Source: Terriglobia bacterium (GTDB lineage Bacteria > Acidobacteriota > Terriglobia > Bryobacterales > UBA6623). From it: 64,000 nt of DNA. Positions 1-38,400 of the stretch are shown here, one piece after another (the first letter of the stretch is position 1; each line of letters starts with the position of its first letter). A program made the position numbers and the translations under genes. The stretch spans positions 51,125 to 115,124 of the forward strand of contig VXMF01000056.1 of NCBI GenBank assembly GCA_009841225.1, in the 5' to 3' direction. The notes below the pieces were generated by a model. The model did not search any database. It saw nothing but the letters and a program-made list of their open reading frames with translations, and was not told the origin of the DNA.

Positions 1-7
1 CCGGGAA

Positions 8-544: not shown

Positions 545-1022
545 TACGAACCTGACCCGGCTGAGACACTGGCAAGGAGGCAATGATGAAGCCGCATCAT
601 GCTCGCCAGACCACCGGAGACTCTGACGAATTGACACCGGACTAACCGGCAGTTTCGCTTTGGAGTGCCCCCTCCACGCTGCCAAGATCAACAGGAGTCC
701 AGCGGCCAAGGCGGCTCGGCACTAGTCTGATCGAAGATGCGACGGGTCGATCCATGAACAGCTCACAGCGATTTCACTGGCGCAAGGTCGCTTGTCAGCA
801 ACTTTGGTTGGAAGCTCCCTCGAAAGCTCCGTTGCACATTTTGGGCATGGGTTAGGTCACGATCTCCGTACCATCCATCGAAGACCCTGCTCGATTCTGC
901 TGCGAAAGAAGTCTTGGGTTCCAAAGCGGTCATCGCGCGAGACCCGACAGCAGGAGAATCGGATTGATCACCCCCTCTGTTCATTCGATCTGCACGGGAC
1001 ATGCGCCGTAAATAGACAGAAA

Positions 1023-1046
1023 GGGGGAGCGGTTGCCCGCTCCCCC
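1023..1046 (-). terminator. Rho-independent terminator downstream of the 1100-4576 ORF
   Basis: Perfect 10-bp inverted repeat GGGGGAGCGG-GCAA-CCGCTCCCCC followed by TTTCT on the minus strand. Confidence 0.75.
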
Positions 1047-1099
1047 CGGATGACCATGTCGCCACGCCACCTGTGGGTGGTCGACGACGCGGTGTGGTG

Positions 1100-4000
1100 C
1101 TACGGCAGATCTGCGCCGTATGCGCCGTTGATATTCCCCATGCTGTACCTGCCGAGCAAGCCCAGCGGGCCTTCTGCCGAAGATCCCACGAATGCTCCTT
1201 GGTGGTTGGTAATGCTCAAGGTGCCCGGGGTCACGCTGCGGTCCACGTAGTTGACGCTCACACTTCCAGATGTCTCCGCAAAGTCGACCAAGTCGTCATC
1301 TGCTGCAACCACCATCGCCACCGCGGGGAAGACGAGTTCCCGCACATCCTCGTCTGCATTCACGTAGAGGTCGCCGTTGGCATTCTGTAGATTGCTGATC
1401 ACCGTCTGGACCTGAGCGCCAATGGCGAGGTCTGTGCCGCCGGAATCTTGGAGTGCGTTCCACTCGACTCGCACGTCGACTTCGCCCTCGTAGCCTACGT
1501 TGCCTACGAACGCGACTGTCCTGCCTTGGTAATTCGCAGTGGCACCAGCCGGGTAGTTCGGCGAATTCCGCGAGGTGATCTTGGACGCGGACAGCGGGCT
1601 GTAAGCGAACGTGTCCATCTCTGCGTTATCCCAGCCGCCACTACGTTGCGCATCGCGGCTCCGCCTGACACGCCAAGCGCCGAAGCGCGTGTAGTCCGTA
1701 GTCCCGAACCAAGTCTTCACCTGCGAGTCCTTCTCCCCGAAGATATCGCCCGAACCCCTCGTCACGAAGGGCTGGTTGTTGTCCTCCCTCACGAAGAATC
1801 CGTCCTCGTCCGGATCCAGCGCCTCTTCCAAGTTGCTGGCACTGGACAGCGCGAGCAGGATATTGTCGATCTTGGACAGAGCGGTGTCCTTGTCGTAGCC
1901 TCCTCGTACGCTATGCGGTAGCCTTTCGGTGAAATCTGTGCCATCAGTACCTGGGTCTACGTGGGCTCGGTCCGGTTGGAACACGTACTCCAGCAGGGTC
2001 TGCTGCACCTCATGCCACAGGTCCCTCTGCTCATCCGGCACCAAGTCCGCGCTGATCAGAGTCGCCAGAGATTCGCGTAGCTGCTCGATCCTCGCCTTCG
2101 CCAAGGCGCGGTAGATGGCGCCGTTAGTGTTGTGCTCGGCAAACTCCTTGGCCTTCAGTGCAGTCAAGGCGATGTCGTAGGTCCGCGTCGCATCGTCCGT
2201 GGTCGTGTTGTCCTCGCTCCCATCGTCGAGACGGCCCCATGTCCATGTGGGATCGTTCAAGGTCGCCCCGGTGTTTACATCTCCACCGGCCTCCCAGCCG
2301 TACTTGGCAACTGTGATCTTGAGCATGCCGCTGCTCAGTTCGGTCTTGACGTAGTTGTTGGTATTGCCGTCATTTAAGTCAGCAGGTGCCGCTGACAGTA
2401 GCTTGGCCTCGATCGTAGTCACCTCGTCATCCGGCGTTGGCCGACCGACGGAGTCGTCCTCTGTCCTCATCGCGCCGTAGCCTGCTGCAAGGTAGTCGTT
2501 GCTGTCCGGGTTCTCCCCGACCGACCACGTGCCGACCGCTTCGCTTCCGGCTTGGTTGCCGCTTCCTCCCAAGAGTCTTCCGCTGAACGTCGCATCGACG
2601 GACTGCGGAATCGGGCTTCCCGCTCGACGCGCGAAAGTAACGCTCGCTCCTTCGCTAACCACAGTGGGATCTGACATGTCTCCACCCCAGACGCCGGCGT
2701 TAGTCATGGTCATTGTTGGCAGGACGATCGCCTCCACATCGCCGTACTGGTACTCCCAGGGGTCCCCACCGGCTGACGTCAGGCCTGTGATCAGTCCGCT
2801 GACTTTGCTGGTGGTGAACCGGACTTGAATGTCAATGTCTCCTGAGAAATGTGTTCCGGCACCGGAGATTGCGAGCGTCTTGCCCATGTACCTCGCAGTT
2901 CCCGTGGTTGTCTGCACGTAACGCGCCCGGGCCGTCTCGGCGGTGGTGCCGAACCCGAATGCGCCCAGCTCGCCCTTGCTGCCCTGCTGACCGTCTGTGG
3001 TGGCATCGTTATCGAAGACATGCTGCGCATCCGAAGTAGCGTTGTCGCGCTCCTTCTTCATGATCGCCCCGTAGCGGGTATTCCCGAGCATCCCGTAGGA
3101 CACCGACGCTTCCCATTTTGTGGCGTTGAAGATATCCGCCGCGGACTTGCCGTTCGTCGTCGCATTCTCAAGCACGCCGTCATCGGCTAGCGCAGTTCCG
3201 AGCAGATCCTCGGTTGACAATGCGGCGATCAGATCCTCGATTCGGCTCACTGCGTCGTCGTCGTCCGGTGAGACCGTGATTCCGGCGTCGCCGAATACAG
3301 CATCGAGCACCCCTTTGACATTCTTGCTGGCATTGCCGGTACCGGCGGTACCCCATTGTCGACTGACATGAAGGTCCCGGTCGGCTTCAGTTTCGAAGAC
3401 CGCGAGCAAGGCTTGGATATTGGCCTTGATCCCCTCCAGCTCCTCTTTGGCAGCGGCCACGAAGTTGGCACCCATCTGCTCCGACATGCCGTCCGGCAGC
3501 AGGTTGTTGAACGAGTACAGGTCGCCGCCCACTTTCAGCGCCGTCTTGGCCTCGTTCACGTCCTCGGTGTCGTCCTCGTCCCCGGGAATCGTCGGCAGTG
3601 CGCCGAGGCCGACCGTCTTGAAGTCCGTGTCGCCGTCAATGGCGACGTTGTCCAGCCGCGTGCCCATTAGGACTCCGTCCATCATCGTCACGCGGTAGGT
3701 CCCCTGCGACGTATCGATGTCTCCCATTCCGCTGGCGGGCAGTGTGGTGCCGTCGACGTCATACATGTCATCGGCCTCGCGCGTCATGGCCACCAAGCCC
3801 GTACCCTCGATCATCATCGACTCGGGCTCGAAGCGTGCCGACCAGATGCCGTCGGTGTACCACAGCGTGTACGTGTTGCCGTTGTCCGACATCACCTCGG
3901 AGCCGACTCCGACTCCCTCAGAGCCCAGCCACCAGGACATGTCCTCGGCCCGCACCAGCTCCACCGAGCCCTGCGTGCCCAAGGCCACCGTCACCATCAC

Positions 4001-4576
4001 CTTCTGGTACATGGCGCTCCACATGCCCTCGGAGTCCATCATCAGCGCGTACATGTTGCCGTTCGCCGCCGTGTAGACCGTGCCGTCCTTGACTTCCATC
4101 TCGCCGATCCACCAGGTCATGTCCTCGGCCTGCTTCACGGTCACCGTGCCGCCGAGCGCGCCCAGCATCACTTCCTGCATGGCCGCAACGTGCATCACGC
4201 CGATCGGAATGCCGTCCGGCGACAGCACCGCCGCGTAGACGTTGCCGTTCGCGGCCGTCACTGTCGTGTCGGCCGTGATCATCACCCACTCGCCGTTGAT
4301 CATCGCCGAGAAGGTCAGATCCTCGTTCCGGCGGACCTCGACCGTCGAGCCGGAGATCCCCAAGGGGATGCTCAGAGCCGGCGGCTGGACGTACTCGGCC
4401 ATGAACGTGCCGTCATCGCTTATCGTGACGGTGTAGGCGTTGCCGTTCTCGGCGGTGACGCTACCGGCACGACTAGCACAAGTATTGGAAGGCTGGGTGC
4501 TGACGGCACTTAGCCTGTGAACGCTCGGGTGACCAGCTACGACGCGGTTTGTGCGCAAGCTACGTAAGCGGGCCAA
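1100..4576 (-). CDS. Repeat + double TbpB-like barrel surface protein, headless copy A (no signal peptide; family homology only to about 4461)
   Basis: 1158-aa ORF; repeats 'LGISGSTVEVRRNEDLTF..NGNVYAAVLSPDG'; two C-terminal modules with 'TRFGAWRV..FAYSPL..ANYQGRTVAFVGNVGYEGEVDVRVEW..FVGSSAEGPLGLLGRY..GAYGADLP'; N-terminus starts inside a repeat. Confidence 0.75.
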   Translation of the reverse strand: MARLRSLRTNRVVAGHPSVHRLSAVSTQPSNTCASRAGSVTAENGNAYTVTISDDGTFMAEYVQPPALSIPLGISGSTVEVRRNEDLTFSAMINGEWVMITADTTVTAANGNVYAAVLSPDGIPIGVMHVAAMQEVMLGALGGTVTVKQAEDMTWWIGEMEVKDGTVYTAANGNMYALMMDSEGMWSAMYQKVMVTVALGTQGSVELVRAEDMSWWLGSEGVGVGSEVMSDNGNTYTLWYTDGIWSARFEPESMMIEGTGLVAMTREADDMYDVDGTTLPASGMGDIDTSQGTYRVTMMDGVLMGTRLDNVAIDGDTDFKTVGLGALPTIPGDEDDTEDVNEAKTALKVGGDLYSFNNLLPDGMSEQMGANFVAAAKEELEGIKANIQALLAVFETEADRDLHVSRQWGTAGTGNASKNVKGVLDAVFGDAGITVSPDDDDAVSRIEDLIAALSTEDLLGTALADDGVLENATTNGKSAADIFNATKWEASVSYGMLGNTRYGAIMKKERDNATSDAQHVFDNDATTDGQQGSKGELGAFGFGTTAETARARYVQTTTGTARYMGKTLAISGAGTHFSGDIDIQVRFTTSKVSGLITGLTSAGGDPWEYQYGDVEAIVLPTMTMTNAGVWGGDMSDPTVVSEGASVTFARRAGSPIPQSVDATFSGRLLGGSGNQAGSEAVGTWSVGENPDSNDYLAAGYGAMRTEDDSVGRPTPDDEVTTIEAKLLSAAPADLNDGNTNNYVKTELSSGMLKITVAKYGWEAGGDVNTGATLNDPTWTWGRLDDGSEDNTTTDDATRTYDIALTALKAKEFAEHNTNGAIYRALAKARIEQLRESLATLISADLVPDEQRDLWHEVQQTLLEYVFQPDRAHVDPGTDGTDFTERLPHSVRGGYDKDTALSKIDNILLALSSASNLEEALDPDEDGFFVREDNNQPFVTRGSGDIFGEKDSQVKTWFGTTDYTRFGAWRVRRSRDAQRSGGWDNAEMDTFAYSPLSASKITSRNSPNYPAGATANYQGRTVAFVGNVGYEGEVDVRVEWNALQDSGGTDLAIGAQVQTVISNLQNANGDLYVNADEDVRELVFPAVAMVVAADDDLVDFAETSGSVSVNYVDRSVTPGTLSITNHQGAFVGSSAEGPLGLLGRYSMGNINGAYGADLP
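3690..4461 (-). repeat. Array of protein repeats (about 4 plus a partial) encoded in headless copy A
   Basis: Recurrent 'V.LG..G.V...R.ED..W..G...V..NGN.Y.L...DG.W.A.F' units in translation. Confidence 0.65.
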
Positions 4577-4652
4577 GACAGCTAAGGCGGCCTCCGATCC
4601 GCCGAAGTTCGACTACTGGGGAGGGCAGTAAGCGGCTCCTCCTTAATTCGCT

Positions 4653-4904
4653 CTAGTCCACAACAGAGCGTGGCTCTTGACCACTCTGATCGAAGCTAAG
4701 AGGCATGACAATCGACTCGGTGCTAACCCGATGGATGATCGGACTTGCGGGCGTGCTGCGAAAGCCGAGCCGCTCATAGAGACGAGCTGTGGGAGTGCCG
4801 AGCCTGACCCTCAGGCTCACACACTCTTGAATTCGTGGGTACATTCGGTATGGTGAGATCGATGAGCGCAGAACTGATCGGCATCCTGAGCGTCGGTGTG
4901 GCAC
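4653..4904 (-). pseudogene. GNAT acetyltransferase C-terminal fragment
   Basis: 'VSLRVRLGTPTARLYERLGFRST' resembles the GNAT motif B/C 'L.V...N..A..LYE.LGF'; no complete domain. Confidence 0.4.
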
Positions 4905-5050
4905 TGGCCGGACTGGTCTTGCGACTGTCGGCGGGGATTGATGGGATAGAGGATCGGCTAGCTAGCGTCGAGCAGCGCTTGGCGCGAGTCGAAGGGCTGT
5001 TAGAAGGACTTGGCCTATCGGGTCGAGTCGTTCCAGCTACGGGAGACTGA
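4835..5050 (+). CDS. Small membrane protein with one TM helix and a coiled coil
   Basis: 71-aa ORF: hydrophobic 'LIGILSVGVALAGLVLRL' followed by heptad-like 'IEDRLASVEQRLARVEGLLEGL'. Confidence 0.45.
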   Translation: MGTFGMVRSMSAELIGILSVGVALAGLVLRLSAGIDGIEDRLASVEQRLARVEGLLEGLGLSGRVVPATGD

Positions 5051-5655
5051 GCACATCAGTGCAATTTCTGGTCCCATGAGGGATCCCGTCAACAGTCATT
5101 CCACCAAGGCGGACCCCGCAGCCGCGGAGAGTCGTCTGGAAGAATTCTTCAAGATCCAGACCTGCCACAGATGACAGCTAGCGGATTGCAGACCTAGCTA
5201 AGATTCGCCGTTGCTCGAGACCATAGGGAGACGGTCAGGTTTGCCTTGGAAGAGCTACAAAACATCCCGTTGATGTTGCCTTCCTCTCCAGTCTTGCCAA
5301 TGATCCGAACATATGCCACCTGACCATTGATAGGAACCATTTCCACGCTTTGCCCCAGAACAGCGAATTTCCAGCTTGCCTTTCTCGATAACAAGGGAAG
5401 TGGTCAAGCAGGACTCGTCCAATAACACTGACAAACGCGGTTTCACATTTCATCTGAGAACGCTAAGCAGCGAGTTTTCGTCATCGCCGCAAGCGACGAT
5501 CCCGGCCGGAATGGTGCTTCCCCTTCCCAGACTTTGCAAGACCATTTGGCGATCGAACTTCATTGTCAGAGTCAGAATCGCTCACAAGAGTAAACTCCTC
5601 CGTTGATTCCCCTTCCTCTGTCCATTCTCCGAAACCAACCCAACAATACGAAAAA

Positions 5656-5679
5656 GGGGGAGCGGTTGCCCGCTCCCCC
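5656..5679 (-). terminator. Rho-independent terminator downstream of the 5712-9188 ORF
   Basis: Same 24-nt hairpin GGGGGAGCGGGCAACCGCTCCCCC followed by TTTTT on the minus strand. Confidence 0.8.
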
Positions 5680-5711
5680 TGGCAGGTTGATTCTGACGAA
5701 TCTTGCCGAGT

Positions 5712-8700
5712 CTAGGGGACCTCGACGCCGAACGCACCGTAGATGTCCACACCGAGGTCGTCGGTATGACTCCCGTCGGGTGCAACACGACCGATCGTGT
5801 CGTCGGTCAATGTCCACGTTCCGATCGCGCCGAGCGGTCCGTCCACTCCCTGGCCCACGAACAGCGCCTTGACGCTGTTGGTGCCAGTTGCGTCGATGTC
5901 GGCCCCGGCGAGGGCGCGGCGGTACCGGACACCCGTGACGCTCGCTTCGCCGTAGGGGATGTTGCCGTCAGCATCCGCTGTGCCAGCTTCGCCGACGATC
6001 ATGTTGTTGGAGAAATCTCCCTGTCCGCCCACGATGATGTTCATTGTGGGGAACACGATATCCATGACCTCGTTGCCTGCCGCGGTTGCTACCGTGACAT
6101 CCGCGCTGCCGCCCTGCGACAGTGGATCGCCCACTGCGGACTGCAGGCCGCTGATCGTCAGCGCCATCGTGCCAACCGTGGTACCCGCGTTCACGTCGGC
6201 GGGAGTCCCCCAGCTGACGTCCACGCTGGCGGTGCCGTAGAGGATCACCGTGTTCTGGAGCGCAATCGTCTCGCCCGTGTAGGTCGCGCTGCCGTCCTGC
6301 GGGAAGCTCAGGTTCTGCAGCGTGCCGACATTCGTCGAATCCAGCGGGCTGTAGGCATACGTGCCGGGTCCGCCGTGCGGTCCGCGAATTACGTTCGCCA
6401 CATTGCCGTCGTTCCTCCGAGCGCTCGTCGTGCTCTCGCGCCGCCAGAAGCCGAAGCGCGTGTAGTCCGTCGTCCCCATGGCCGAGAACACCTTGTACTC
6501 CCGCTCGCCTCTCAGGTTGGCAATGGTCCGAGTGCTGACCTCGTTCCGCCTATCCGCGGCATCGTACATGCGGAAGTCTGCTTCATTCTCCCGTGCGTCC
6601 GTGGCGGGGTCGTCGGCCGTGCCGCTATCGTAGTGATCGAAGATCCCCGTTCCGTCCGGATCGAGGGCATCCTCCAACTTGGCGTTGCTAGACAGCGCGT
6701 CCAAGGCGCGGTTGATCAGGTCAATCGCATCCGCTTCGGAATCCAGCGCGGTGTAGGCGTCGGTCAGCTTCAGCGGCAGCAGTCCGCCGAAGAAGTTGAA
6801 CTGCACCGCGTCCTGCACTCTCACCCAAGCCATCTCCTCGGCAGTTTGCGTGTCGGCCGAGTTGAGGCCCTGCAGGGTTGACAGCAGGTCGCGCTCTCTC
6901 GTGAGTGTTGAGACAACGCCATCGATCCACTTCGGACCGTTCATCGCAATCTGCGCGCCGTTGTTCCCCGCTAGCGCCGCCAGGTCCCACTTGGCGGTGA
7001 TCAGAGTCTCATCGGCAGCTTCGCCGAGCGCTTGGTAGGTCGGGGCAGTCGCGCCGTCGCGGCCGGCCCAGCCGTACTTGCGCTGCTTCACCGTCAGCAT
7101 CCCGTCCGCGATCGACACGCTGGTCAGGTTCTCCGCCGCGTTGGCTTCGACGTTCGTGAACAGCATCGCGGTCGCCGCCGAGCCGTCGTCTCCGGAAGGC
7201 ACTGGCCGGGTCGCGTCCGCGACGTGCACCACGCCGAAGCCGCCCGTGATATAGCCCGAGCCATCCGGATCTCCGACAGACCACGTGCCGTTGGCCTCGC
7301 TCCCCGCGTCAGCGCCCTGGCCCAGCAGGATGCCCTTGAAGGTATTCATTTGGTTGTTGACGGGCCGCAGCAGCCCCGAGTTGGCGGTGTAGAAGATCGC
7401 GGCGTTTTGGCCCGTGCGGTCGTCGGCGCCAGTGGTCCACGTGGCGTTCCTCAGCAGGTCCGCGTCGTCCAGCACGATCCGGTCCACGTCCGCGAAGTTG
7501 TGCTGCCAAGGCAGCCCGTCGGCGTCCTCCAGCCCGCTCACCACGCCACTGACCGAGTTGGCCTTGAAGCGCACCTGGACATCCATCATGCCCGAGTAGG
7601 TATCGCCAGACGCGGTCACAGCCCGGGTCCCACCCGAGTAGCTGGCAATCCCCGTCAGCGAGACCGCTGCCGCGTCCGCGGACCGCAGGGTCTGCTGCAT
7701 CGTCGAGTACGAGAACGCCCCGTACTCGCTCGTGCTCGCGCCGGCCTTGGCGTTTCCGGACGTCTTCCGCAGCGCCGTGCCGTAGCGCGTGCTGCCGGTC
7801 ATGCCCATCGTCGCCGAAGCGCTCCACATTACGCGGTTGAACGCATCCGCCGCCGCGCCGGCGCCCAGCGCCTGGCTCTCGAACACCCCGTCGCCGTCCT
7901 CGGCCGTCGCCGCGACAAAAGCGTCCTCGCTCGACAGCGCGTCGAGGATGTCGTCGATTTCGTTGAGGATGTCCTCCTCCCGTGGCGGGGTCATCCTGAC
8001 GGCCGAAGTGGGATCGGTTTCAGCATCGCTGTCGGTACCGAAGATGTTGTCCAGCGCCATTTCGAGCTTGGTCCACTGGCCCCCGAGAATCCCGGTCTCC
8101 CCTTCAAGGTTGCTCGGCTTGGTGTCGAGGGCGAGCAGCGCGGCCACGTCGGCTCGGATCTTTTCGATCGCCTTCACGGCCTCGGCCACGAAGTTCGCGC
8201 CCTCGTCGCTCGCCATGCCGCTGCCCAGCAGGTCTCCTATCGAGAACATGCCCTCGCCGTCGTCTTCGGTGCCCGTCGTGATAAGGTACGTCCCCGCCTC
8301 GTTGGCCACCGTATCGCCGTCGTTGGTGCTCAGTCTCGGAATGGGCAACATGTTGGTCACATAGTGGTCGGTGTCGGGGTCGATGGCCGCGTCAAACCGC
8401 GCTCCCATCAGCATCCCGTCTTCCATCCAAATGTGATACATGGCACCGTCCACGGTGACGTCGCCCACGCCAGTCTCGGGCAGGGTGCTGCCGTTGACGT
8501 CGTACATGTCATCGGCCTCGCGGGTCATGGCCACCAGGCCCGTGCCCTCGATCATCATCGACTCGGGCTCGAAGCGCGCTGTCCACACGCCGTCGGTGTA
8601 CCACAGCGTGTACGTGTTGCCGTTGTCCGACATCACCTCGCTGCCTACGCCGACGCCCTCAGAGCCTAGCCACCAGGACATGTCCTCGGCCCGCACCAGC

Positions 8701-9188
8701 TCGATCGAGCCCTGCGTGCCCAGCGCCACCATTGCCGTCACCTTCACGTAGGTGGCGGTCCAATCGACGTGGTCGTCGTGCTCCATACTCGTCAGCACGT
8801 AGTCGTTGCCGTTCGCCGCCGTGTAGACCGTGCCGCTCTCGACGTGCATCTCGCCGATCCACCAGGTCATGTCCTCGGCCTGGGTCAGCGTCACCGTGCC
8901 GCCGAGCTCGCCCAGCATCACTTCCACCATCGCCGCCACGTGCATCACGCCGATCGGAACGCCCTCCGGCGACAGCACCGCCGCGTAGACGTTGCCGTTC
9001 TCGGCCATCACTGTCGTGTCGGCCGTGATCATCATCCACTCGCCGTCAATCATCGCCGAGAAGGTAAGGTCTTCATTCCGGCGGACTTGGACTGACGAGC
9101 CCGAAATCCCCAGAGGGATGCTCAGCGCCGGCGGCTGGACGTACTCGGCCGTGAACATGCCGTCGTCGCTGATCATCACCGTGTACAT
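5712..9188 (-). CDS. Repeat + double TbpB-like barrel surface protein, headless copy B (no signal peptide; open frame runs to about 9.25 kb)
   Basis: 1158-aa ORF paralogous to copy A; C-terminal 'TDYTRFGFWRRES..YAYSPLDSTNV..ATYTGETIALQNTVILYGTASVDVSW..FVGQGVDGPLGAIGTWTL..YGAFGVEVP'. Confidence 0.75.
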   Translation of the reverse strand: MYTVMISDDGMFTAEYVQPPALSIPLGISGSSVQVRRNEDLTFSAMIDGEWMMITADTTVMAENGNVYAAVLSPEGVPIGVMHVAAMVEVMLGELGGTVTLTQAEDMTWWIGEMHVESGTVYTAANGNDYVLTSMEHDDHVDWTATYVKVTAMVALGTQGSIELVRAEDMSWWLGSEGVGVGSEVMSDNGNTYTLWYTDGVWTARFEPESMMIEGTGLVAMTREADDMYDVNGSTLPETGVGDVTVDGAMYHIWMEDGMLMGARFDAAIDPDTDHYVTNMLPIPRLSTNDGDTVANEAGTYLITTGTEDDGEGMFSIGDLLGSGMASDEGANFVAEAVKAIEKIRADVAALLALDTKPSNLEGETGILGGQWTKLEMALDNIFGTDSDAETDPTSAVRMTPPREEDILNEIDDILDALSSEDAFVAATAEDGDGVFESQALGAGAAADAFNRVMWSASATMGMTGSTRYGTALRKTSGNAKAGASTSEYGAFSYSTMQQTLRSADAAAVSLTGIASYSGGTRAVTASGDTYSGMMDVQVRFKANSVSGVVSGLEDADGLPWQHNFADVDRIVLDDADLLRNATWTTGADDRTGQNAAIFYTANSGLLRPVNNQMNTFKGILLGQGADAGSEANGTWSVGDPDGSGYITGGFGVVHVADATRPVPSGDDGSAATAMLFTNVEANAAENLTSVSIADGMLTVKQRKYGWAGRDGATAPTYQALGEAADETLITAKWDLAALAGNNGAQIAMNGPKWIDGVVSTLTRERDLLSTLQGLNSADTQTAEEMAWVRVQDAVQFNFFGGLLPLKLTDAYTALDSEADAIDLINRALDALSSNAKLEDALDPDGTGIFDHYDSGTADDPATDARENEADFRMYDAADRRNEVSTRTIANLRGEREYKVFSAMGTTDYTRFGFWRRESTTSARRNDGNVANVIRGPHGGPGTYAYSPLDSTNVGTLQNLSFPQDGSATYTGETIALQNTVILYGTASVDVSWGTPADVNAGTTVGTMALTISGLQSAVGDPLSQGGSADVTVATAAGNEVMDIVFPTMNIIVGGQGDFSNNMIVGEAGTADADGNIPYGEASVTGVRYRRALAGADIDATGTNSVKALFVGQGVDGPLGAIGTWTLTDDTIGRVAPDGSHTDDLGVDIYGAFGVEVP

Positions 9189-9210
9189 GTTTCCGTTCTC
9201 GGCGGTAACG
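8420..9210 (-). repeat. Array of protein repeats encoded in headless copy B
   Basis: Same repeat units as copy A, nearly identical over long nucleotide stretches (8521-8720 vs 3780-3980). Confidence 0.65.
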
Positions 9211-9559
9211 GTGGATCTATGTTCGGCTGCAAGAAAACTATTTCTAAATATATAATGCTAAATTATTTACGAAATTCTCACAGTTCGAAGTCCATCACTG
9301 TGACATACAAAAAAGTGGTGACAAATCACTGCGTTATCTTCGAGTATCAGTGCCCCACTGCGTGCAGAACAGTGACCTTCAACGGGACGCTCCCAGCATT
9401 CGCGACGGCTGTTGCAGTGGGCCGATCGGCGAATAGTCGGATTCTGCGGTTCATCCCGATGGCCACCGCTCACCCAGCCGGCCACGAATCTCTGTACGGC
9501 GGCATCGAAATATGCTCTCGCCGACTGCAGGGCCGAGCCCCTAACAGCGAGGCAATCGT

Positions 9560-10726
9560 ATGAAGCGGCTGAGAGACGCTCGATATGTCCGCGGTCTCTT
9601 AGTTCCCGGAGAGCGAGTGCGGATGCACTCGCTCGGGGGCGGCCTGATCCTGCGTGTCGGCAAATCCGGCACGGGGTCGTGGGTCCAGCGTATTACCGTC
9701 AACGGCCGCCGCAGGGATATCGGGCTCGGGCCGACCCGCACGGTCTCTCTCGAGCAAGCGCGGGAATGGGCGAATCTCAACAAGTACAGGGTCCTGATCG
9801 GACATCCCGACGCGGTCGTTGGAATCGCTGAGATGCGGTGGCCACGCCCCTCGACCGTGCCCTACTTCGGCGAATTCGCCAGGTCGGTAGTCGAGTCCCG
9901 CCAGGACCTCAAGCGCGATGTGCAGCGCGCGCACTGGATGAGCACGTTCGAGAACCACTGTCGGTTGCTCTATCGCAAGCGAGTTAACGAGATCCGGCGA
10001 CAGGATGTCATCGCCGTGTTTGAGGAGAGAGTGGAAGGCGGCGAGATCCTCTGGACGGCGAAGCCCGCTGCCGCGAAGCTAGCGCTACAGCGTCTAGGCT
10101 ACGTGTTCACGGTCGCAATGGGCCGCGAAATCATTGCCGAGAATCCGGCGGATGAGGCACCCATCCGGGCCGCTTTGCCGCGGATCAGGGGCAACGGCAG
10201 GACCCGACACCACAAGGCAATCCCCCATACCGAGCTGGGCGCGTTTCTCGCCCGGCTGGACCGGTCGAGGACCGCCCATTCCGCGACCCTGTTTCTCGCT
10301 CTGACGGCGGTCAGACGGATGGAGGTTCTGGAGGCGGACTGGAGCGAGGTCGATATGGAGACGCAATCATGGACGATTCCGGCCGGTCGTGCGAAGACCA
10401 ATCGAGACCATGTCGTCCCATTAAGCAGAGCAGCGATCGGCGTTCTCGACCGAGCGCATGCACGGACAAGGGGGGCTGGGCGGATCTTCGCAATATCCCG
10501 AACGGCAGTGCAACGCGTATTCTCGGCTGGCGGCGGGACGGCTCACGGAGTCCGTAGCGCGTTCCGCTCTTGGTGCCAGGACGCGGGCAAGGTCCGCGAA
10601 GTCGCTGAACTGTGCCTCGGGCATCGGATCGGCAGTGCCGTCGAGCAAGCCTATGCGCGGTCGAGCCTGCTTGAACACCGTCGCGAACTCATGAGAGAGT
10701 GGGCCGAGTACCTCGGCCTGCAGTAG
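9560..10726 (+). CDS. Tyrosine recombinase/integrase, P4-like
   Basis: 388-aa ORF; DUF4102-like N-terminus; catalytic signature 'TAVRRMEV', 'HGVRSAFRSW', 'LGH', 'EQAYARSS'. Confidence 0.9.
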   Translation: MKRLRDARYVRGLLVPGERVRMHSLGGGLILRVGKSGTGSWVQRITVNGRRRDIGLGPTRTVSLEQAREWANLNKYRVLIGHPDAVVGIAEMRWPRPSTVPYFGEFARSVVESRQDLKRDVQRAHWMSTFENHCRLLYRKRVNEIRRQDVIAVFEERVEGGEILWTAKPAAAKLALQRLGYVFTVAMGREIIAENPADEAPIRAALPRIRGNGRTRHHKAIPHTELGAFLARLDRSRTAHSATLFLALTAVRRMEVLEADWSEVDMETQSWTIPAGRAKTNRDHVVPLSRAAIGVLDRAHARTRGAGRIFAISRTAVQRVFSAGGGTAHGVRSAFRSWCQDAGKVREVAELCLGHRIGSAVEQAYARSSLLEHRRELMREWAEYLGLQ

Positions 10727-25241: not shown

Positions 25242-28200
25242 CTACGGGGTTAGATCCGCGCCGAAGGCTCCCTCGATTGTGCCCCACTCCCAGGTTCCAA
25301 CCACGGCGCGCGGCCCTGCCGGGTCGTAGCCGACGAACTTACCCGTGGTTGAGCCGGTGATGAAACTCCTCTCGCGGCGACTCGGGTCGAAATAGCGGAC
25401 TCGAACAATAGACGTGCCGCTGAACCCAATTCGGTCTAGCGTGTCGAGCTGGACGCTCGCTCCGTCGAAGATGAGTTGGCTGACCTCGAAGTTTGCGTCC
25501 AGCAACGGCCCGCCATTATCTGTCCTCGCTAGGTTTTCGATGACCGTGGTGACCGCTGAGCCATCCGGCCGATCGCTTCGCCAGCGAACACTGAGGCTGA
25601 TATCACCGTCGTAGAACGCTGTCCCGTCTGAGCTGACGTCCACGGCCAACGTGCGCCCGACATAGGTTGAGTTGAACCCCCTGGGGAAGTTCGGGTCGCC
25701 GGTCGAGAATATTGTTTGCCCAATCTGGCTATAGGCGAACACCCCGCTGCGCTCGTTCCCGGTCGCCGCCTCCACCGGCGAGAGGGCGTTCTCACGAACG
25801 TGCTTGGCCCACACGCCGAATCGGCCGTAGTCGGTGTTGTCGTACTTGACCTCGACTTCGTACTCGAACGCCGCGTAAATGTCCTCGAAGTCGTAGTCGC
25901 CGTTATCTAGGCTGGATTGGCTCAGGGTGCCGTCGAAAACGCCCCCGTCTTCGACCGCGTCACGGAAACTTGCGGGACTAGCTAGGGCTGCAAGGGCGTC
26001 CTGAAGAAGCTCGACGGCGTCCTCGTCGCGATCCGCGAGGCTTGACCCAGAGGGGTAGCGCGTGCCCAGCAGCACGCTGGTGCCCGTTCGACTGCCGAAG
26101 ATGTAGTCCTGCAGGGTTTGGTTCGCATCCTCCCACAGCCTCTCGCGGCTCTGCAGCGCGGTGCTCGTGCTCTGGTCGAAAATGTTGATGTAGATACTCA
26201 GCAGGCTGAGCTGCCGGTCCAGCTCTTCCTGCGCCTTCTGGAACAGCCGGGGGCCCACAATGATGGTCCCGCCGCTGGCAGACAGCTCGGCGGCGGGCAG
26301 CTCGATGCGGTCGTTGTCGGTGTCGCGCGCGTCGATCGTGATGTTCCCGTCACTATCTGGCCGGGCCACCAGCCAGGTCTCGGCCACCTCGCCGAGATCG
26401 GGCGTCGGGACCACCGGACGAACGGGCGGCGGGGGTCGCGTGGATGTTCCGTGGGAGTCTACGCCGAAGCCGCCCGCCAGGATCACGTTCCCTCGCGAGC
26501 TGAGGCTCCAAGTGCCGATAGCAGATTGCCCTGCGTCCGCTCCGCGGCCCACGAAGCGTCCTTCGAACTCTGAGCTCAGCGACCGAGGCGAAAACCGGAC
26601 CGCGAGCGGGTTGAACGAAACGGAGGCGGTGCCACTGGATGCCGGTTCGAACGAGCCGTCACTCGAATGGAGCCTGGCAGTGGGCAAGTGAATCGTGTCC
26701 ACTTCCTGCAGGGAGTAGCGCCACAGGCGGCCGGTCACGTCTTGCAGGTCGGTAACCAGGCCCGTGACCTGCCTGCTGGCAAACCGCACGCGCAGCTCGA
26801 TGTTGCCCGTGTAGATGGCTTGGCTGGACTCCCTGCTCGCTGCGACCGTCTCGCCAAGGTAGAGTGCCTCCCCGCTGCCCGGCAGATCTCGGGTCCGCGT
26901 GGGCTCCAAAGGGCTGTAGGCGAACGCGCCGATGCCTTCCGTGCCGGACGCGAAGTCTAGGGGACGCGAGGCCGCGCTCCGTTCCTGCTTGGTATACGCT
27001 CCGTAGCGTGTCGCGCCAGTCCAGCCGAATCCTAGGCGGGTAGCGCTCCGCACCGCGAAGTACGTGTCATCGCTCTCGTCGGCATCCACTAGCCTCGAGC
27101 GCGAAAAGATACCGCTGTCAAGTGATTCGCGAAAGGCAGATGCGCTGCCTAGCGCCGCCAGCACGTCTTCGATGTCCTCGATGAGCTCTTCGTAGTCAAT
27201 GGTGATGCCATTCCGCTCCTTGGGCGCGTCCTGGCCCAGCAGCGTTCTGCCCTCGCCCGGGAAGACGAGGCTCAGGTGATCGGCGATGCGGTCCCAGCGC
27301 CGTTCGATCGTCGTGGCCAGGCTCGGGGCCGATTCGGCGAGTCCGATCAAAACCTCGAGATCCTCGAGCTCGTTCGTGATCAGGGCGAGCGCTTCTTCTG
27401 CGAAGGTCACTTCGCGGTCGGCCCGGCCGTGCGTGAACAGCCCGTGCACCGAATACTCCAGACCGTTCACCTCGAGGATCGAGCCTTCGCGCGTGCTAGT
27501 GCCGCTGTCGCTGGTCAAGCGTACCCGTGGAGTGACGCCAACGTAAGTGACCAGCGCGTCAGTTGTCAGCGGCTCGCCGGGATCGGGCCTGCCGGGTGGA
27601 ACCGTCGTGCGCACGGCCCGCCAAGTACTGCCTGCGACCTGCGTCAGTACGTAGTTCGAACCGCCGACGGAGATCACGTCGCCGCTGCTTACCGAGGCGC
27701 CTTCGTACAGATAGGAGCCGTCCTCGACTTGGGTCAGGACGATGCTTCCGCCGGTGCCCGGCAGGACGACGTGAATCGGCATGGGCTGCGGCTCGGCTCG
27801 CCAGGCCCCGTCCACCAGCGTGAGCCGGTAGCGGTGCCCGTTGACGGTGGAGCGCACGACGTGGCCGCTGCGAATGGCATCGTCTCCCAGAGTCCACTGG
27901 CCGTTTTCTTGCCGAATCACTCGGATCACGCCGCCGTATGCCCCTAGGTGCACCGTCTCGGGCTCGGTCACGAAGCTTGCAGTCCAGCGCCCGTCTGTCC
28001 CGAGCGAGAACCTGTATCTTGCGCCAGCCGCCTCGCGAACTTCGCCGCTCCATAGCGGCGTGCCATTGAGTTCGAAGGTGCCCGCTTCCAGCCTGGTGAC
28101 CTGCACCGTCGTGCCACTCGCCCCCAGCGCCACCCGTTGAGGCTCCGATGGCACGAAATGTGCTTGCCACATACCGTCTGTGCCTAGGGCGAGTGTGTAG

Positions 28201-28826
28201 CGGTTGCCGTTGGCTGCCCGCACCACGTGGCCGCTGCGAAGCTCCGCATCGTTGAGCCAGAAGCTGCCGTTCTCGCGCATTTCGATGTCCACGGCGTCGC
28301 CGCTGATGCCGAGCGCGAGGCGCACAGGATCCGGCGCCACGAATTCCGCGCTCCAGCTACCACTGGTGCTGAGCTCCAGTTCGTAGCGGTTGCCGTTGCC
28401 GGCCGTGACTACGTGGCCGCTCTGCACGGCAGAGGAGCCGAGCTGGTAGGTGCCGTCCTCCTGGAGTTCCAGGGTGACTTCGTCGCCGCTGGTGCCTAGC
28501 TGCACGCGTGCAGGATCCGGCGAAACGAATGCGGCACTCCATGTGCCGCCGGACAGAGTCAGGCGGTAGGTGGCCGCGTTCTCGCCGCGAACGGTGCTGC
28601 CGCTGGTGAATGGCTGGCCGTTGTGCGTCCAGCCCCCGGCTTGGGTCGAGATCACGGTGGTGGCGCCACCCCGCTCGCCCAGTGTCACGACCACGACGGC
28701 GGGCACGAACGGTGGGGGAGCGGGAATCCTGGGGGCGGGTTCGCTCGCACAGCCGACCAAGACAGCCGAGACAAGCGCGGAGAGGACCACCCAGCACAAG
28801 GCGGCGGTTCTGGGGTTCCGATTCAC
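25242..28826 (-). CDS. Repeat + double TbpB-like barrel lipoprotein, paralogue C
   Basis: GTG start at 28826 preceded by AGGAG; signal/lipobox 'VVLSALVSAVLVGC'; 6 N-terminal repeats; two barrel-like modules; ends 'GAFGADLTP'. Confidence 0.8.
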   Translation of the reverse strand: MNRNPRTAALCWVVLSALVSAVLVGCASEPAPRIPAPPPFVPAVVVVTLGERGGATTVISTQAGGWTHNGQPFTSGSTVRGENAATYRLTLSGGTWSAAFVSPDPARVQLGTSGDEVTLELQEDGTYQLGSSAVQSGHVVTAGNGNRYELELSTSGSWSAEFVAPDPVRLALGISGDAVDIEMRENGSFWLNDAELRSGHVVRAANGNRYTLALGTDGMWQAHFVPSEPQRVALGASGTTVQVTRLEAGTFELNGTPLWSGEVREAAGARYRFSLGTDGRWTASFVTEPETVHLGAYGGVIRVIRQENGQWTLGDDAIRSGHVVRSTVNGHRYRLTLVDGAWRAEPQPMPIHVVLPGTGGSIVLTQVEDGSYLYEGASVSSGDVISVGGSNYVLTQVAGSTWRAVRTTVPPGRPDPGEPLTTDALVTYVGVTPRVRLTSDSGTSTREGSILEVNGLEYSVHGLFTHGRADREVTFAEEALALITNELEDLEVLIGLAESAPSLATTIERRWDRIADHLSLVFPGEGRTLLGQDAPKERNGITIDYEELIEDIEDVLAALGSASAFRESLDSGIFSRSRLVDADESDDTYFAVRSATRLGFGWTGATRYGAYTKQERSAASRPLDFASGTEGIGAFAYSPLEPTRTRDLPGSGEALYLGETVAASRESSQAIYTGNIELRVRFASRQVTGLVTDLQDVTGRLWRYSLQEVDTIHLPTARLHSSDGSFEPASSGTASVSFNPLAVRFSPRSLSSEFEGRFVGRGADAGQSAIGTWSLSSRGNVILAGGFGVDSHGTSTRPPPPVRPVVPTPDLGEVAETWLVARPDSDGNITIDARDTDNDRIELPAAELSASGGTIIVGPRLFQKAQEELDRQLSLLSIYINIFDQSTSTALQSRERLWEDANQTLQDYIFGSRTGTSVLLGTRYPSGSSLADRDEDAVELLQDALAALASPASFRDAVEDGGVFDGTLSQSSLDNGDYDFEDIYAAFEYEVEVKYDNTDYGRFGVWAKHVRENALSPVEAATGNERSGVFAYSQIGQTIFSTGDPNFPRGFNSTYVGRTLAVDVSSDGTAFYDGDISLSVRWRSDRPDGSAVTTVIENLARTDNGGPLLDANFEVSQLIFDGASVQLDTLDRIGFSGTSIVRVRYFDPSRRERSFITGSTTGKFVGYDPAGPRAVVGTWEWGTIEGAFGADLTP
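27600..28700 (-). repeat. Six tandem about 58-aa repeat units in paralogue C
   Basis: Starts VTLGERGG / RVQLGTSGD / RLALGISGD / RVALGASGT / VHLGAYGG / VVLPGTGG. Confidence 0.75.
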
Positions 28827-29127
28827 TTGTGATGCTCCTTGATTTACTACAGCATAGTCTATTGCGTTCTTGCGACGGACTGTTGATGCCTCGCCGCACT
28901 CGAATTGAGCCCGAGCCTGCCCGCTGTTGCGTAAGATAGTTCCGGTCAATAGTGGCGAGCTGTGCTCCGGATCGGGCGGACGTATTCGCTAGTTTGGATG
29001 CCGGTGGTTCTGCGGAAAGGACAGAATTGGCGGCAATTCTTGACGGTGAGGGAGTTCGGATCAAAATTCGAGGCTTGTATTACATTCCCGTGCTATACTG
29101 TATTGGCCAAAACAAGGGGAACGGAAA

Positions 29128-32100
29128 ATGATGCGTAAATGGAGCCTGCCTATTCTGGCGAGGGCCTGCCTCGCCGCATCAACCGCTGTGCTCTTTCTTT
29201 CCTGCGGCGGAGACTCGGCAGGACCGACAACTCCGCCGCCTCCGCCGCCATTCCAGCCCCAGACTGTTGTGGTGCAGCTGGGCACAAGGGGCGGTGCCAC
29301 CACACTCATCTCTACGCAGGCTGGCGGCTGGACGCGCAACGGCCAGCCCTTTACCACCGGTAGCACTGTAACGGGCGAGAATGCCGCCAGTTACCGCCTG
29401 ACTCTCTCCAACGGCAGGTGGACGGCCGAGTTCATCGCGCCCGATCCCGAACCACTCGTGCTCGGCGCGAGCGGCGACGCGGTACTGCTGCAGGCCCAAG
29501 AGGACGGCAGCTACGAGGTCGATGGCGAGCCCTTGGCAAGCGGCAGGGTGGTCGAGGCGGACAATGGCAACCAGTACCGGCTTGTGCGGGGCTCCGACGG
29601 TACTTGGATGGCGGAATACGTGCCCCCCGCGCCGCAGCTCGTGCATCTGGGCACGAGCGGCGAATCGCGCCAAGTGAGTCGACTTGAGGACGGCGGGTAC
29701 ATCGTGAACGGGGTGCCGCTGGCCCCAGGCTCGCTGATCACGACAGGTAATGGCAACCGCTATACGCTGACCCTCGGCGGTGATGGAATGTGGGCCGCGG
29801 TGTTTGTCGAATCCGACCCGCAGCGTCTACAACTTGGCACAAGCGGCGATGCGCCGTTGCTGATTTACCGCCAGGAAAACGGGACTTTCCGCTTGAATAA
29901 CGAACCATTGCTGGGCGGCCGGGTGGTTGAGGCCAGCAATGGCAATCGCTACCGCCTCACCTTGGGCCCGGATCGCTCGTGGCTAGCAACCTATATCCCC
30001 GAACCGGTCACGGTGCGGCTCGGAGGTACTGGCGGGACCGTCAGCTTGACTCCCAACGAAAACGGAACATGGCTACGGGGATCTGCCTCGTTCTCCAGCG
30101 GCGACAGGGTCACGGGCAGCAACGGATTTGAGTACGTCTTGACGCTTGGGTCTGACGGCTGGTTCGCAGAGCCGGTGCCGATGACCGTCGAGGTTGAGGT
30201 GGTTGGGTCGGATGCGCAAGCCTTCCAGCTGGCGCGGTTGGTAGACGGCACGTATCTCTACGACGGCGAGCCGGTCAATTCAGGCGACACGGTGACTGTG
30301 GGCGGAAGCACCTACAGGCTGCAGTTCGCCAACAATCGCTGGACCGCGCAATTCTTGCGAGGAGTAATCTTTGTGGAGTTGGGCGGGCCAAATGACCTCA
30401 TAGAGCTGACCCGGAATGCGGACGGCACCTACGAGTACGACGGCCGGCGCGTGCGCAGTGGCTCGATTCAGAGAAGTCCCAACACGGGCATACGCTACCG
30501 GCTGCGCTTGGCGGGCGGAGTTTGGACGGCGAGCGTGTATGTGCCCCCGACGGTCGACCCCGGTGGCGGCGACCCCGGTGTCGGAACGCCGCCGGTCGGG
30601 GCGGAGAACATTTTCGACGCATTGCCGGAGGAACTGATTGACTCTAACGGCGCGTTCAGTGCCAGTGATACTTCGACTGACGCCAACTATAGGATCCAGT
30701 CCGGCGTCAGCGGTACGAACGCCGATGGCGACCGGGTCGATTACGGCCGCTACAGCGGTAGCGGAAGCTACGAGGACGATACTTTCGTCGAAAGCGTGCT
30801 GCGGGCGATTGCCAGCATTCTTGAGGACATCGAGTCTCAGGGGCTGGCTGATGGGGACGACTCCCAGAGGTTTGTTGCTGGCGTGCTGATTGATGCCGGT
30901 TGGCCTAAGGTGGTGCAGGAGTTAAATGCGATCTTCGGTGGCGACCCGATATCGTTTACCAAGCCCGTGAGGGCGGGAGCGACGGATATCGACGAGGCCG
31001 TGGATGAGCTCGAGGATCTAAGGGAAGACCTCTCCGATGTCGCCAAGTTCAGAAGCAGGTTCATGACGCGGATCGACGCGGCAACTACTGCCGACGCTGA
31101 CGCCACCGCCGACACGATCTTCAACGCGAGAAAGCGGGTGCTGGCCTTGGGATCTTCAGCCAATACGCGCTTCGGCGTGATTTCCACGCTGCCTGACACT
31201 GCAACCGCCGTGACCGTGGCCGGTGGGGATGAGACGGTCGGTCGAGAACCCTTCGCATTCAGCCCGCTCTCGGCTACGCCGACGGCTGATCTGCCCAGTC
31301 GCGGAATCGCGCGCTACACCGGCAGGACCTGGGCAGTCGATGACGATCTAGCGCTGTACTCGGGCTCGATCGTATTGGAGGCCTCGATAGCGATCGAGCG
31401 GGTCACCGCGACGGTCTCGGACCTGCGCCGCAGCGACACCAACGCGAGTTGGATGCACAGCGGCAAGGCCGTGCGAGAGATCACGCTGCCCGAAATCAAT
31501 CGCGTCGAATTCCAAGACAACGGATCGTTTGCGAGGACCGGCGCTAACGCTAGGGTGGTCTATGACGAGTTCGGCGGCCTCTCGTTTGTTGATGTCGGTG
31601 CATCTGCCCTGAATGGGCAGTTTGTGGGAGGCAGCGATGGCCGGAGTCCGGGAGTAGCGGCAATGGGCACTTGGGAGGTCGGTGATCTACTGGATGGATC
31701 GTTCGGGGCAGAGCACATCAGGACGAATGCTGCGACACTTCCATCCCCTGTCTCTGCTGTAAATCACGGCTCGACCGGAATTGATACGGCCGCTGACACA
31801 CTGACGATCACCGGATTCAGTCACGTATACCCGCTCGCTGGCCTTGCAAGCTCGACCCGGACCATTGCCCCACTGACAGCGACGCTCCGGCTCGGGACCA
31901 CGTCTCTTACTCGCTTCGGGGCTTGGAAACTCGTGGACAATACAGACCCGGCGAGTCCGACGATGACAAGTGGGGTCTTCAACTATAGCCAGTTGAGGCC
32001 AACGGATTTCGGCACCAATTTTCGCCCGCTCAGGGGAATTGCTCAATACGCTGGTCGGACAGTGGCGGTTGATTCCGACGGCGATCTGTACAACGGGAGC

Positions 32101-32451
32101 TATCGACTCAACGTGACTTGGGACTCTGGTGGCGACACCATCAGTGCGGCGATCAGCGGCTTGAGTGGATTCACCCTAGGCGGCCAGACCGTGACGCAGA
32201 TTGGTTTTCAAGGTACTGCCTCCGGCACAACCTTCTCAGCGAGCACAACGACAGTCCAGTATGCAACGAGCACACAAGGTGTGGCCCTGCCGTCTGGCAC
32301 CACCGCGACGCATACGGGCACGTTCTTGGGCAGTGGAGGTCCCGACGGACCCTATGCTGTGGTCGGGTTTTGGAGCCTGACGGATAGCAATCCCACCCCC
32401 AATTACACGATCAACGGGGCCGTTGGTGCCGACCTAGTGCGGGCTCCGTAG
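29128..32451 (+). CDS. Repeat + double TbpB-like barrel lipoprotein, paralogue D
   Basis: Lipobox 'STAVLFLSCGG'; proline linker; 7 repeats; two barrel modules; ends 'GAVGADLVRAP'. Confidence 0.8.
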   Translation: MMRKWSLPILARACLAASTAVLFLSCGGDSAGPTTPPPPPPFQPQTVVVQLGTRGGATTLISTQAGGWTRNGQPFTTGSTVTGENAASYRLTLSNGRWTAEFIAPDPEPLVLGASGDAVLLQAQEDGSYEVDGEPLASGRVVEADNGNQYRLVRGSDGTWMAEYVPPAPQLVHLGTSGESRQVSRLEDGGYIVNGVPLAPGSLITTGNGNRYTLTLGGDGMWAAVFVESDPQRLQLGTSGDAPLLIYRQENGTFRLNNEPLLGGRVVEASNGNRYRLTLGPDRSWLATYIPEPVTVRLGGTGGTVSLTPNENGTWLRGSASFSSGDRVTGSNGFEYVLTLGSDGWFAEPVPMTVEVEVVGSDAQAFQLARLVDGTYLYDGEPVNSGDTVTVGGSTYRLQFANNRWTAQFLRGVIFVELGGPNDLIELTRNADGTYEYDGRRVRSGSIQRSPNTGIRYRLRLAGGVWTASVYVPPTVDPGGGDPGVGTPPVGAENIFDALPEELIDSNGAFSASDTSTDANYRIQSGVSGTNADGDRVDYGRYSGSGSYEDDTFVESVLRAIASILEDIESQGLADGDDSQRFVAGVLIDAGWPKVVQELNAIFGGDPISFTKPVRAGATDIDEAVDELEDLREDLSDVAKFRSRFMTRIDAATTADADATADTIFNARKRVLALGSSANTRFGVISTLPDTATAVTVAGGDETVGREPFAFSPLSATPTADLPSRGIARYTGRTWAVDDDLALYSGSIVLEASIAIERVTATVSDLRRSDTNASWMHSGKAVREITLPEINRVEFQDNGSFARTGANARVVYDEFGGLSFVDVGASALNGQFVGGSDGRSPGVAAMGTWEVGDLLDGSFGAEHIRTNAATLPSPVSAVNHGSTGIDTAADTLTITGFSHVYPLAGLASSTRTIAPLTATLRLGTTSLTRFGAWKLVDNTDPASPTMTSGVFNYSQLRPTDFGTNFRPLRGIAQYAGRTVAVDSDGDLYNGSYRLNVTWDSGGDTISAAISGLSGFTLGGQTVTQIGFQGTASGTTFSASTTTVQYATSTQGVALPSGTTATHTGTFLGSGGPDGPYAVVGFWSLTDSNPTPNYTINGAVGADLVRAP
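29265..30550 (+). repeat. Seven tandem repeat units in paralogue D
   Basis: VQLGTRGG / LVLGASGD / VHLGTSGE / LQLGTSGD / VRLGGTGG / VEVVGSD / VELGGPND unit starts. Confidence 0.75.
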
Positions 32452-37800: not shown

Positions 37801-38400
37801 AACACGGATCATGCTCGATTCGGCGCGTGGGTCAAGCTGGTCCGTACTACAGCCCTCCCGTCCGCGACCCTTGCGTCGAGGATCGAGCGCGCCGGCACGT
37901 TCGCCTACAGCCGGATTGGCCAAACAGTGTATTCAGCCAATGACGTGAATTTCCCGAGAGGCTTCACCTCCAACTACTACGGGCGCACCGTAGCCGTGGA
38001 TGCCAGGTCGGACAGGCCGCCTAGGTTCTATGACGGCGATGTGCACTTGTCGGTGCGGTGGGGCAACGACGGCCCCACTTTCTCTAGCGTCACCACAATC
38101 ATCGAGAACCTGTCCACGACCGATGGCGGCGAGCCCTTTCAACTTGGCGGCTATGACGTCAGTCACCTCATATTCGCTTCGGCGAGCGTCCAGCTCGACA
38201 GTCAAAACCGCATTGAATTCGACGGGATCTCCCCGGTGCGGGCGCGCTTCTTCGATCTAGGCCGCTCTGAGAGAGATAACGGCACGGGCAAGACCGAGGG
38301 GAAATTTGTCGGCTACGGCGCGGCCGGGCCGAGCGGCGTGATCGGGACTTGGGACTTAGGGTCGCTCGAAGGAGCATTTGGAGCCGATCTGGTCCCGTAA
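34834..38400 (+). CDS. Repeat + double TbpB-like barrel lipoprotein, paralogue E
   Basis: Signal/lipobox 'LVLFAAVAAILSGC'; collinear with paralogue C throughout; ends 'GAFGADLVP'. Confidence 0.8.
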   Translation: MTWNSRTASMHWLVLFAAVAAILSGCASESSPRLPAPPPFVPTTAVVTLGTKGGATTLISTQSGGWTHNGQSFSSGETVRGQNAATYRLTLSGNTWSATFVPGDPTRVRLGSSGDEVSLAMQEDGSYLLGTAPISSGHVVSARNGNRYALNLGESGTWSAEFLPPDPLRIALGTSGDSVNIERREDRSFSIGGSPLLSGHEVRAANGNRYTLALGTDGIWRADFVGSAPQRVTLGASGRTVLVTTLEDGTHQLDGGPLRSGEVRETANGAKYRFSLDADMRWSATFVTDPEIVSLGAHGGTVLVARQENGLWTLGGRTIFSGHTVRGQNGHDYTLVLVGSTWQAVPHPVTIQVPLPGTAGIISLTRAEDGTVLYEGREVSSGDAITVGSSRYFLRQVAGGGWQATLTPVRPPPPPGAPPISDTLATYVGVSPRVRLTEEGGSGSRAGSVFELNGLEYSVHSLFSNGTEFREVTIAEEARGLIADELADIQTLIGLTSVTSGLSSDIERRWDRISSHLSKVFPGEGSRLMGLNTPKLRNGRIDYDEVVDRVQDVLAALSSSSAFQFALDDGIFSRSRLNPDDSHDRFFAVRSLTSLGFGWSSAARYGAYSKRERSALSRGLGFPSGNAGIGAFAYSPLETTRTSSLPRSGEAFYYGETVAASRESRQSIYTGAIELRVTFASRQVTALVSSLRDSGGRAWRYSFQDVDVIALPTARISASDGSFTPRTPGTAALSLSSSSAPRSRALSAEFEGRFVGRGQESGRTAIGTWSLTRAGSVILTGGFGADRSVPPRRPPPVVRPIPPSSDLGEQAATYITARPDSDGDIRIAARDSEDNRIALRASKLFTDGEDVVTGESLIQKTQNDLRDLLRLLDVYIHVLGPNDPSALRNRQTLWQQANETLQDNVFGRPNVLGRTYPRSGSRLDDRDDKAVDLLRDAVVALSSPARFEDAVQEGGVFENTLSQSRLDRGDYDFEDIHAATDYRVEVEYDNTDHARFGAWVKLVRTTALPSATLASRIERAGTFAYSRIGQTVYSANDVNFPRGFTSNYYGRTVAVDARSDRPPRFYDGDVHLSVRWGNDGPTFSSVTTIIENLSTTDGGEPFQLGGYDVSHLIFASASVQLDSQNRIEFDGISPVRARFFDLGRSERDNGTGKTEGKFVGYGAAGPSGVIGTWDLGSLEGAFGADLVP
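34965..36060 (+). repeat. Six tandem repeat units in paralogue E
   Basis: VTLGTKGG / RVRLGSSGD / RIALGTSGD / RVTLGASGR / VSLGAHGG / VPLPGTAG unit starts. Confidence 0.75.

Follow-up and report, generated by a model that had tools for sequence, protein, structure and literature searches.

A probable archive of silent lipoprotein cassettes beside a tyrosine recombinase gene in an Acidobacteriota genome

Surface variation from silent cassettes is best known in pathogens that face adaptive immunity. In the vsa system of Mycoplasma pulmonis, silent variable 3' ends come to lie behind a promoter, a ribosome binding site and an extended constant 5' coding segment (714 nt), and a tyrosine recombinase, HvsR, is encoded nearby (PMC2268961). 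The vls system of Borrelia burgdorferi combines a single expressed gene, vlsE, with promoterless cassettes that contribute to it by segmental gene conversion (PMC11499132, PMC2632889), and the hsdS locus of Streptococcus pneumoniae pairs an expressed gene with partner copies in inverted orientation, where several repeats of differing length in the coding region recombine through the tyrosine recombinase PsrA and by other routes (PMC4948785). No paper on surface variation in Acidobacteriota or in sponge symbionts was found in the literature searched. The named relatives that share the gene parts described here are Bryobacterales/Terriglobia MAGs, and their sample names are ones that we take to denote marine sponge samples.

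The window, meaning the whole 64,000-nucleotide stretch of DNA that was analyzed (C24:51125-115124), belongs to a 115-kb contig (C24) of a 5.74-Mb draft genome with a GC content of 62%, referred to as G000. An initial annotation of the window had described two headless paralogues, A and B, with long intact reading frames and no signal peptide, and had interpreted them as promoterless donors for an expressed lipoprotein gene, with independent 5' truncations at a hotspot as the alternative. The descriptive part of this proposal held. Both frames encode 1158 aa, neither a signal peptide nor a lipobox was found in A or B, and no promoter-like site of the kind seen at the expression site described below was detected between positions 900 and 9700 of the window, the stretch that holds both copies. 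The corresponding features are:

1022..1047, minus strand: terminator-like hairpin 3' of A
1100-4576, minus strand: ORF A, intact, 1158 aa, headless
1100..4456, minus strand: headless cassette A, made up of a repeat region (3737-4456) and barrels, with homology to E starting at 4456
5655..5680, minus strand: terminator-like hairpin 3' of B
5712-9188, minus strand: ORF B, intact, 1158 aa, headless
5712..9206, minus strand: headless cassette B, made up of a repeat region (about 8478-9206) and barrels, the barrel being of E type

A search of the same genome with B returned 15 matches, most of them on the same contig. Among these is E, a full-length lipoprotein gene located 20-24 kb to the left of the window, on the strand opposite to A and B. 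Full-length paralogues that carry a signal peptide also occur within the window:

C24:27048-30959, plus strand: E, full-length lipoprotein gene with promoter, ribosome binding site, lipobox (LGLAGC), 148-residue head, repeat region and barrels
25242..28949, minus strand: full-length paralogue with signal peptide, not headless
29128..32451, plus strand: full-length paralogue with signal peptide
34834..38400, plus strand: full-length paralogue with signal peptide

Upstream of the start codon of E lies a promoter-like site, TTGACA-18-CATGAT with an extended TG, which is conserved in five genomes (G000, G001, G003, G005 and G006). A head with at least 90% identity is present once in each of G000, G001, G005 and G006; none is assembled in G002, and G003 has two head-bearing contig ends, one of them without the promoter. 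A copy combining a promoter with a secretion signal is thus present at the sequence level in E, and its expression is inferred. The promoter of the second G003 head (G003:C86, L111 1-314) is lost, the break falling just before the -10 region, and this head adjoins a XerC-like recombinase 58-59% identical to one found upstream of F, a further headless copy. Homology upstream of the head stops at nearly the same point (C24 near 26809) in G001, G003 and G006, so that head and promoter together possibly constitute a movable unit.

Five headless copies, F, C, D, A and B, are present on the contig, all on the minus strand and thus inverted relative to E, with F, C and D located to the left of the window. 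Like A and B, copies C and D begin at a shared breakpoint, termed bp1, whereas F is shorter and begins at a second one, bp2. The cassettes are whole 3' parts of 3.4-3.6 kb, mostly separated by other genes, and in those that start at bp1 the first 240 codons or so form a repeat region with 70-96% protein identity to that of E. Copies A, B, C, D and F, together with the G002 copies, remain intact over 1000-1200 codons. All five headless copies on the contig are therefore intact and without a 5' end, the absence of a promoter-like site applying to the stretch that holds A and B; their silence at the RNA level is inferred. A family of 532-aa AAA-ATPases is present in multiple copies interspersed with the cassettes (window 1-544; C24:40411-51668), and copies of it also adjoin cassettes in G003, G005 and on a contig discussed below as misbinned. 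A HEIGHxxGLxHEHQR metalloprotease motif occurs in two secreted-looking proteins of the window (21982-24513 and 41088-44987).

The initial annotation had also proposed that A and B lose homology at the same codons, in a VTAENGN motif, and this was confirmed. The V|TAENGN motif spans 4441-4461 in A and 9190-9210 in B, and homology between the two begins at its ACC codon (bp1; A 4456, B 9206); in an ungapped alignment, identity per 25 nt is about 8-36% upstream of this point and 76-96% downstream. The breakpoint is exact to the nucleotide and is preceded by at least four different upstream sequences. The claim that these upstream sequences are unrelated held only in part: it is true of A versus B, but about 150-190 nt upstream of A are shared with the headless C and D at 77-80% identity, and the sequence upstream of B is shared with headless copies of other species at 74-87%. 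Different breakpoints in relatives had been named as grounds for refutation; instead, four congeners have headless copies that start at the very same bp1 codon, namely G001 (a copy 53 nt from a contig end), G002 (two copies), G005 (two degenerate copies) and G006, and so has a contig binned as Chloroflexi. This contig, JAJDZD010000029.1 (L067), is likely misbinned; the barrel of its bp1 cassette is 83% identical to that of G006. A 22-mer at bp1 is found at the head and at most cassettes, and upstream of bp1 head and cassettes have no more than about 3-5 nt in common. In G007, G008 and G010 the bp1 motif occurs with one mismatch inside longer, head-carrying open frames, and no headless copies were seen in these genomes, not every fragment of which was covered. 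The second breakpoint, bp2, corresponds to WMQDG (DNA TGGATGCAAGACGG), with the strongly diverged barrel part lying behind it, and recurs behind unrelated upstream sequences in three genomes (F of G000, G005:C34 and G003:C314; L055 near 4660, L051 near 3345 and C24 near 34775).

Comparison of the copies with E reveals exchange within the repeat region, the relevant features being:

3965..4336, minus strand: 372-nt tract of A, identical in DNA to E, recent gene conversion
4457..4644, minus strand: U, upstream element common to A, C and D, an antisense relic of a barrel 3' end

At the protein level, the 240-residue repeat regions of E and A share 96% identity, versus 36% and 26% for the two barrel parts. 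The 372 identical nucleotides lie inside the repeat, the remaining 368 nt of which contain 37 mismatches; all fourfold-type sites of the tract are identical, against a barrel dS of about 1.3 or above. The E-D and A-D pairs share 200 identical nucleotides each, and the permutation P-value for identical tracts is 0.00025, the lowest value that the test can return. Copying of repeat-region segments between E and silent copies has therefore taken place and, since the conversion tract ends within the repeat, homologous recombination is indicated. It remains possible in principle that the identical tracts are assembly artefacts of a draft genome, yet G005 shows the same pattern with real mismatches. 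The U element bears on the barrels: its noncoding divergence among A, C and D is about 0.25 substitutions per site, whereas their barrels differ with a dN of 0.65-0.69 and a dS of 1.6-2.1, and the barrels must therefore have been replaced after U was copied. U was also considered as a second recombination site and rejected, given its identity as a relic of a barrel 3' end.

Barrels have likewise been exchanged between orthologous loci. Next to the recombinase gene intB, G000 carries B as the tail, whereas G002 carries an orthologue of cassette C (78.6% aa identity over 970 residues), G006 a third type that the misbinned contig also has, and G005 a broken copy. Head-linked barrels also differ among species, being of E type in G000 and of F type in G005, where the head-linked barrel is 97.7% identical in DNA, over the 349 nt from bp2 to the contig end, to a headless copy of the same genome. 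The junction of a silent-copy barrel with a lipoprotein signal peptide, put forward in the initial annotation as a check, was thus found for the F type, though a head joined to exactly the barrel of A or B occurs in no assembly. Nearly all the genomes are drafts, with contigs that often break off within the tail or shortly after bp1; repeated or variable sequence is expected to give such ends, which are no proof of variation. Whole recombinant genes could not be seen in G001, G005 and G006 because their contigs end inside the expressed tail. Taken together, the E-A tract and the G005 junction support the recombination role assigned to the headless copies, and recombination among copies rests on good evidence, its operation as switching within a population being inferred.

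One rival to a cassette function is that A and B are decaying pseudogenes, produced when old duplicates lost their 5' ends independently, at least twice, at a fragile site or an integrase target. In its favor, some copies are degenerate (G005:C134/C130 contain stops and G003:C314 is broken), and the cut in F and its counterparts lies elsewhere. Against it stand the intactness of the copies listed above, the recent tracts of identity to the expressed copy and the exchange of barrels at a single orthologous locus, both of which it leaves unexplained, and the selection acting on headless barrels. For the latter, only barrels headless in both compared genomes were considered: C versus G002:C60 yields a dN/dS of 0.34 (948 codons, 95% bootstrap 0.28-0.42) and F versus G002:C115 one of 0.39 (927 codons, 0.33-0.47), without stops in either pair and with a largest value of about 0.51 in 1000 bootstraps. 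These barrels are under purifying selection, as would fit silent copies that return at times to the expression site, although a dN/dS below 1 could conceivably reflect expression of headless frames by another route. We consider the truncation scenario very unlikely, and the alternative offered by the initial annotation is disfavored on these grounds.

The explanation that we favor, with a probability of roughly 0.8, is that A and B are silent donor cassettes in an archive feeding one expressed variable surface lipoprotein; live switching has not been observed, with neither reads nor transcripts at hand. The archive would comprise one expression site, E, which supplies promoter, ribosome binding site, lipoprotein signal peptide and 148-residue head, and the five headless donors. 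The repeat region would serve as homology arm, with the diverged barrel behind bp2, and homologous recombination within it is inferred to replace whatever follows the head, so that another barrel would be displayed. The route may be gene conversion or inversion of the DNA lying between E and one of the cassettes, the latter conceivable because the copies are inverted relative to E. Some joinings at bp1 may be, or may have been, site-specific, as suggested by the exactness of bp1 behind unrelated upstream sequences together with the linked and selected recombinase IntB, encoded next to B:

9207..9559, no strand: intB-bp1 spacer, 74-87% nucleotide identity in four congeners, candidate recombination or regulatory region
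9560..10726, plus strand: intB, tyrosine recombinase with arm-binding, middle and catalytic domains

IntB matches PF00589 (Phage_integrase), PF13356 and PF22022 above the curated cut-offs, including the arm-binding domain. Besides G000, orthologues exist in exactly G001, G002, G005 and G006 (85-94% identity), and in all five genomes that have it intB is oriented divergently to a neighboring bp1 cassette, from which a conserved spacer of about 350 nt (plus a 430-nt insertion in G005) separates it. Its dN/dS is 0.13-0.28 and no broken copy was found. The flank to the right of intB is syntenic among G000, G001, G002 and G005. On the strength of this linkage a role of IntB in cassette recombination is inferred; the acting enzyme is not shown. 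An AT-rich inverted repeat in the spacer at about 9245-9269 (TAAATAATTT-AGCAT-AAATTATTTA) is conserved in G001, G002 and G006, with one arm degenerate in G000. As a crossover core it was rejected, being absent beside the head and the other cassettes. Another gene, xerF (C24:34858-35787), was rejected as a dedicated recombinase because many relatives about 50% identical to it occur elsewhere in the genus, and it is hence not specific.

Two further readings assign IntB a different part. In the first, it acts as integrase for an island whose insertion at bp1 of a lipoprotein gene stranded B as the 3' half, the duplicates being similar through concerted evolution only and without any switching function. 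An arm-binding domain is typical of island integrases, and the order of integrase, spacer and bp1 resembles an attachment-site end. However, the right flank of intB is conserved chromosome in four genomes, a second end with a matching head half was not found, and different barrels occupy the same integrase-linked position in different species, so that this reading appears unlikely. In the second, IntB carries out site-specific inversion or exchange at bp1 as in Mycoplasma vsa, flipping the DNA that separates E from a cassette and thereby giving the head a different whole tail. The nucleotide-exact bp1 behind different upstream sequences, the inverted orientation of every cassette relative to E, and the conservation, selection and constant position of intB all speak for it. 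Against it, no core with inverted arms common to head and cassette (att-like) sides was recognized when looked for, beyond the few nucleotides shared with the head upstream of bp1; the conversion tracts sit inside the repeat and not at bp1; barrels can also switch near bp2; and an intB orthologue is lacking in G003, which does have heads and barrel copies. On balance the evidence tips slightly away from such a mechanism. In a bolder version that we regard as possible, IntB, an island-type integrase with its arm-binding domain, would have been domesticated to serve the lipoprotein cassettes, attaching tails to the single head at a core site that lies within the coding sequence and acting alongside homologous recombination in the repeat region, which would constitute a two-mode surface-variation system in Acidobacteriota.

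The lipoprotein itself matches no Pfam or NCBIfam family above cut-off, and a sequence search of solved structures gave no match. The structure model of full-length B has low confidence (pLDDT 43), whereas that of the C-terminal barrel is usable (pLDDT 79), and its closest fold matches are the meningococcal fHbp (E = 0.015) and NHBA (E = 0.02), both weak and not significant. As in barrel lipoproteins of the fHbp/NHBA/TbpB type, a lipobox is combined with a C-terminal barrel ending in GAFG, but neither a profile nor a fold match of the present family reaches significance. That the protein is a barrel lipoprotein exposed at the surface is plausible and not proven. If the favored reading is true, an archive of this kind in Acidobacteriota would imply a further use of such systems as a defense against phages or grazers, or against an invertebrate host. 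The analysis further yields a lipoprotein family with no named domain, a short set of junctions open to testing on existing reads, and a new candidate recombinase.

With respect to the systems described at the outset, the sequence features that define a silent-cassette system are present here, and clonal switching is inferred. The locus shares with M. pulmonis vsa one expressed lipoprotein gene with a constant 5' part, headless silent copies that here run opposite to the expression site (plus strand for E, minus strand for the others) and a tyrosine recombinase nearby; it differs in its host (Acidobacteriota, with a GC content of 62%), in its unrelated lipoprotein, in the arm-binding domain of its recombinase and in having conversion tracts within the repeat region, while inversion is not shown. 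With Borrelia vls it has in common one expressed surface lipoprotein, promoterless cassettes and segmental gene conversion, but vls cassettes correspond to a central region and form a contiguous plasmid array, whereas those described here are whole 3' parts on a 115-kb contig, for the most part with other genes in between, opposite in orientation to the expression site and linked to a recombinase. Inverted partner copies, repeats inside the coding region and one tyrosine recombinase recall pneumococcal hsdS, which encodes a restriction specificity subunit and not a surface lipoprotein. The locus is therefore distinct from known systems in its lineage, its lipoprotein, its large inverted cassettes with two breakpoints and its linked integrase.
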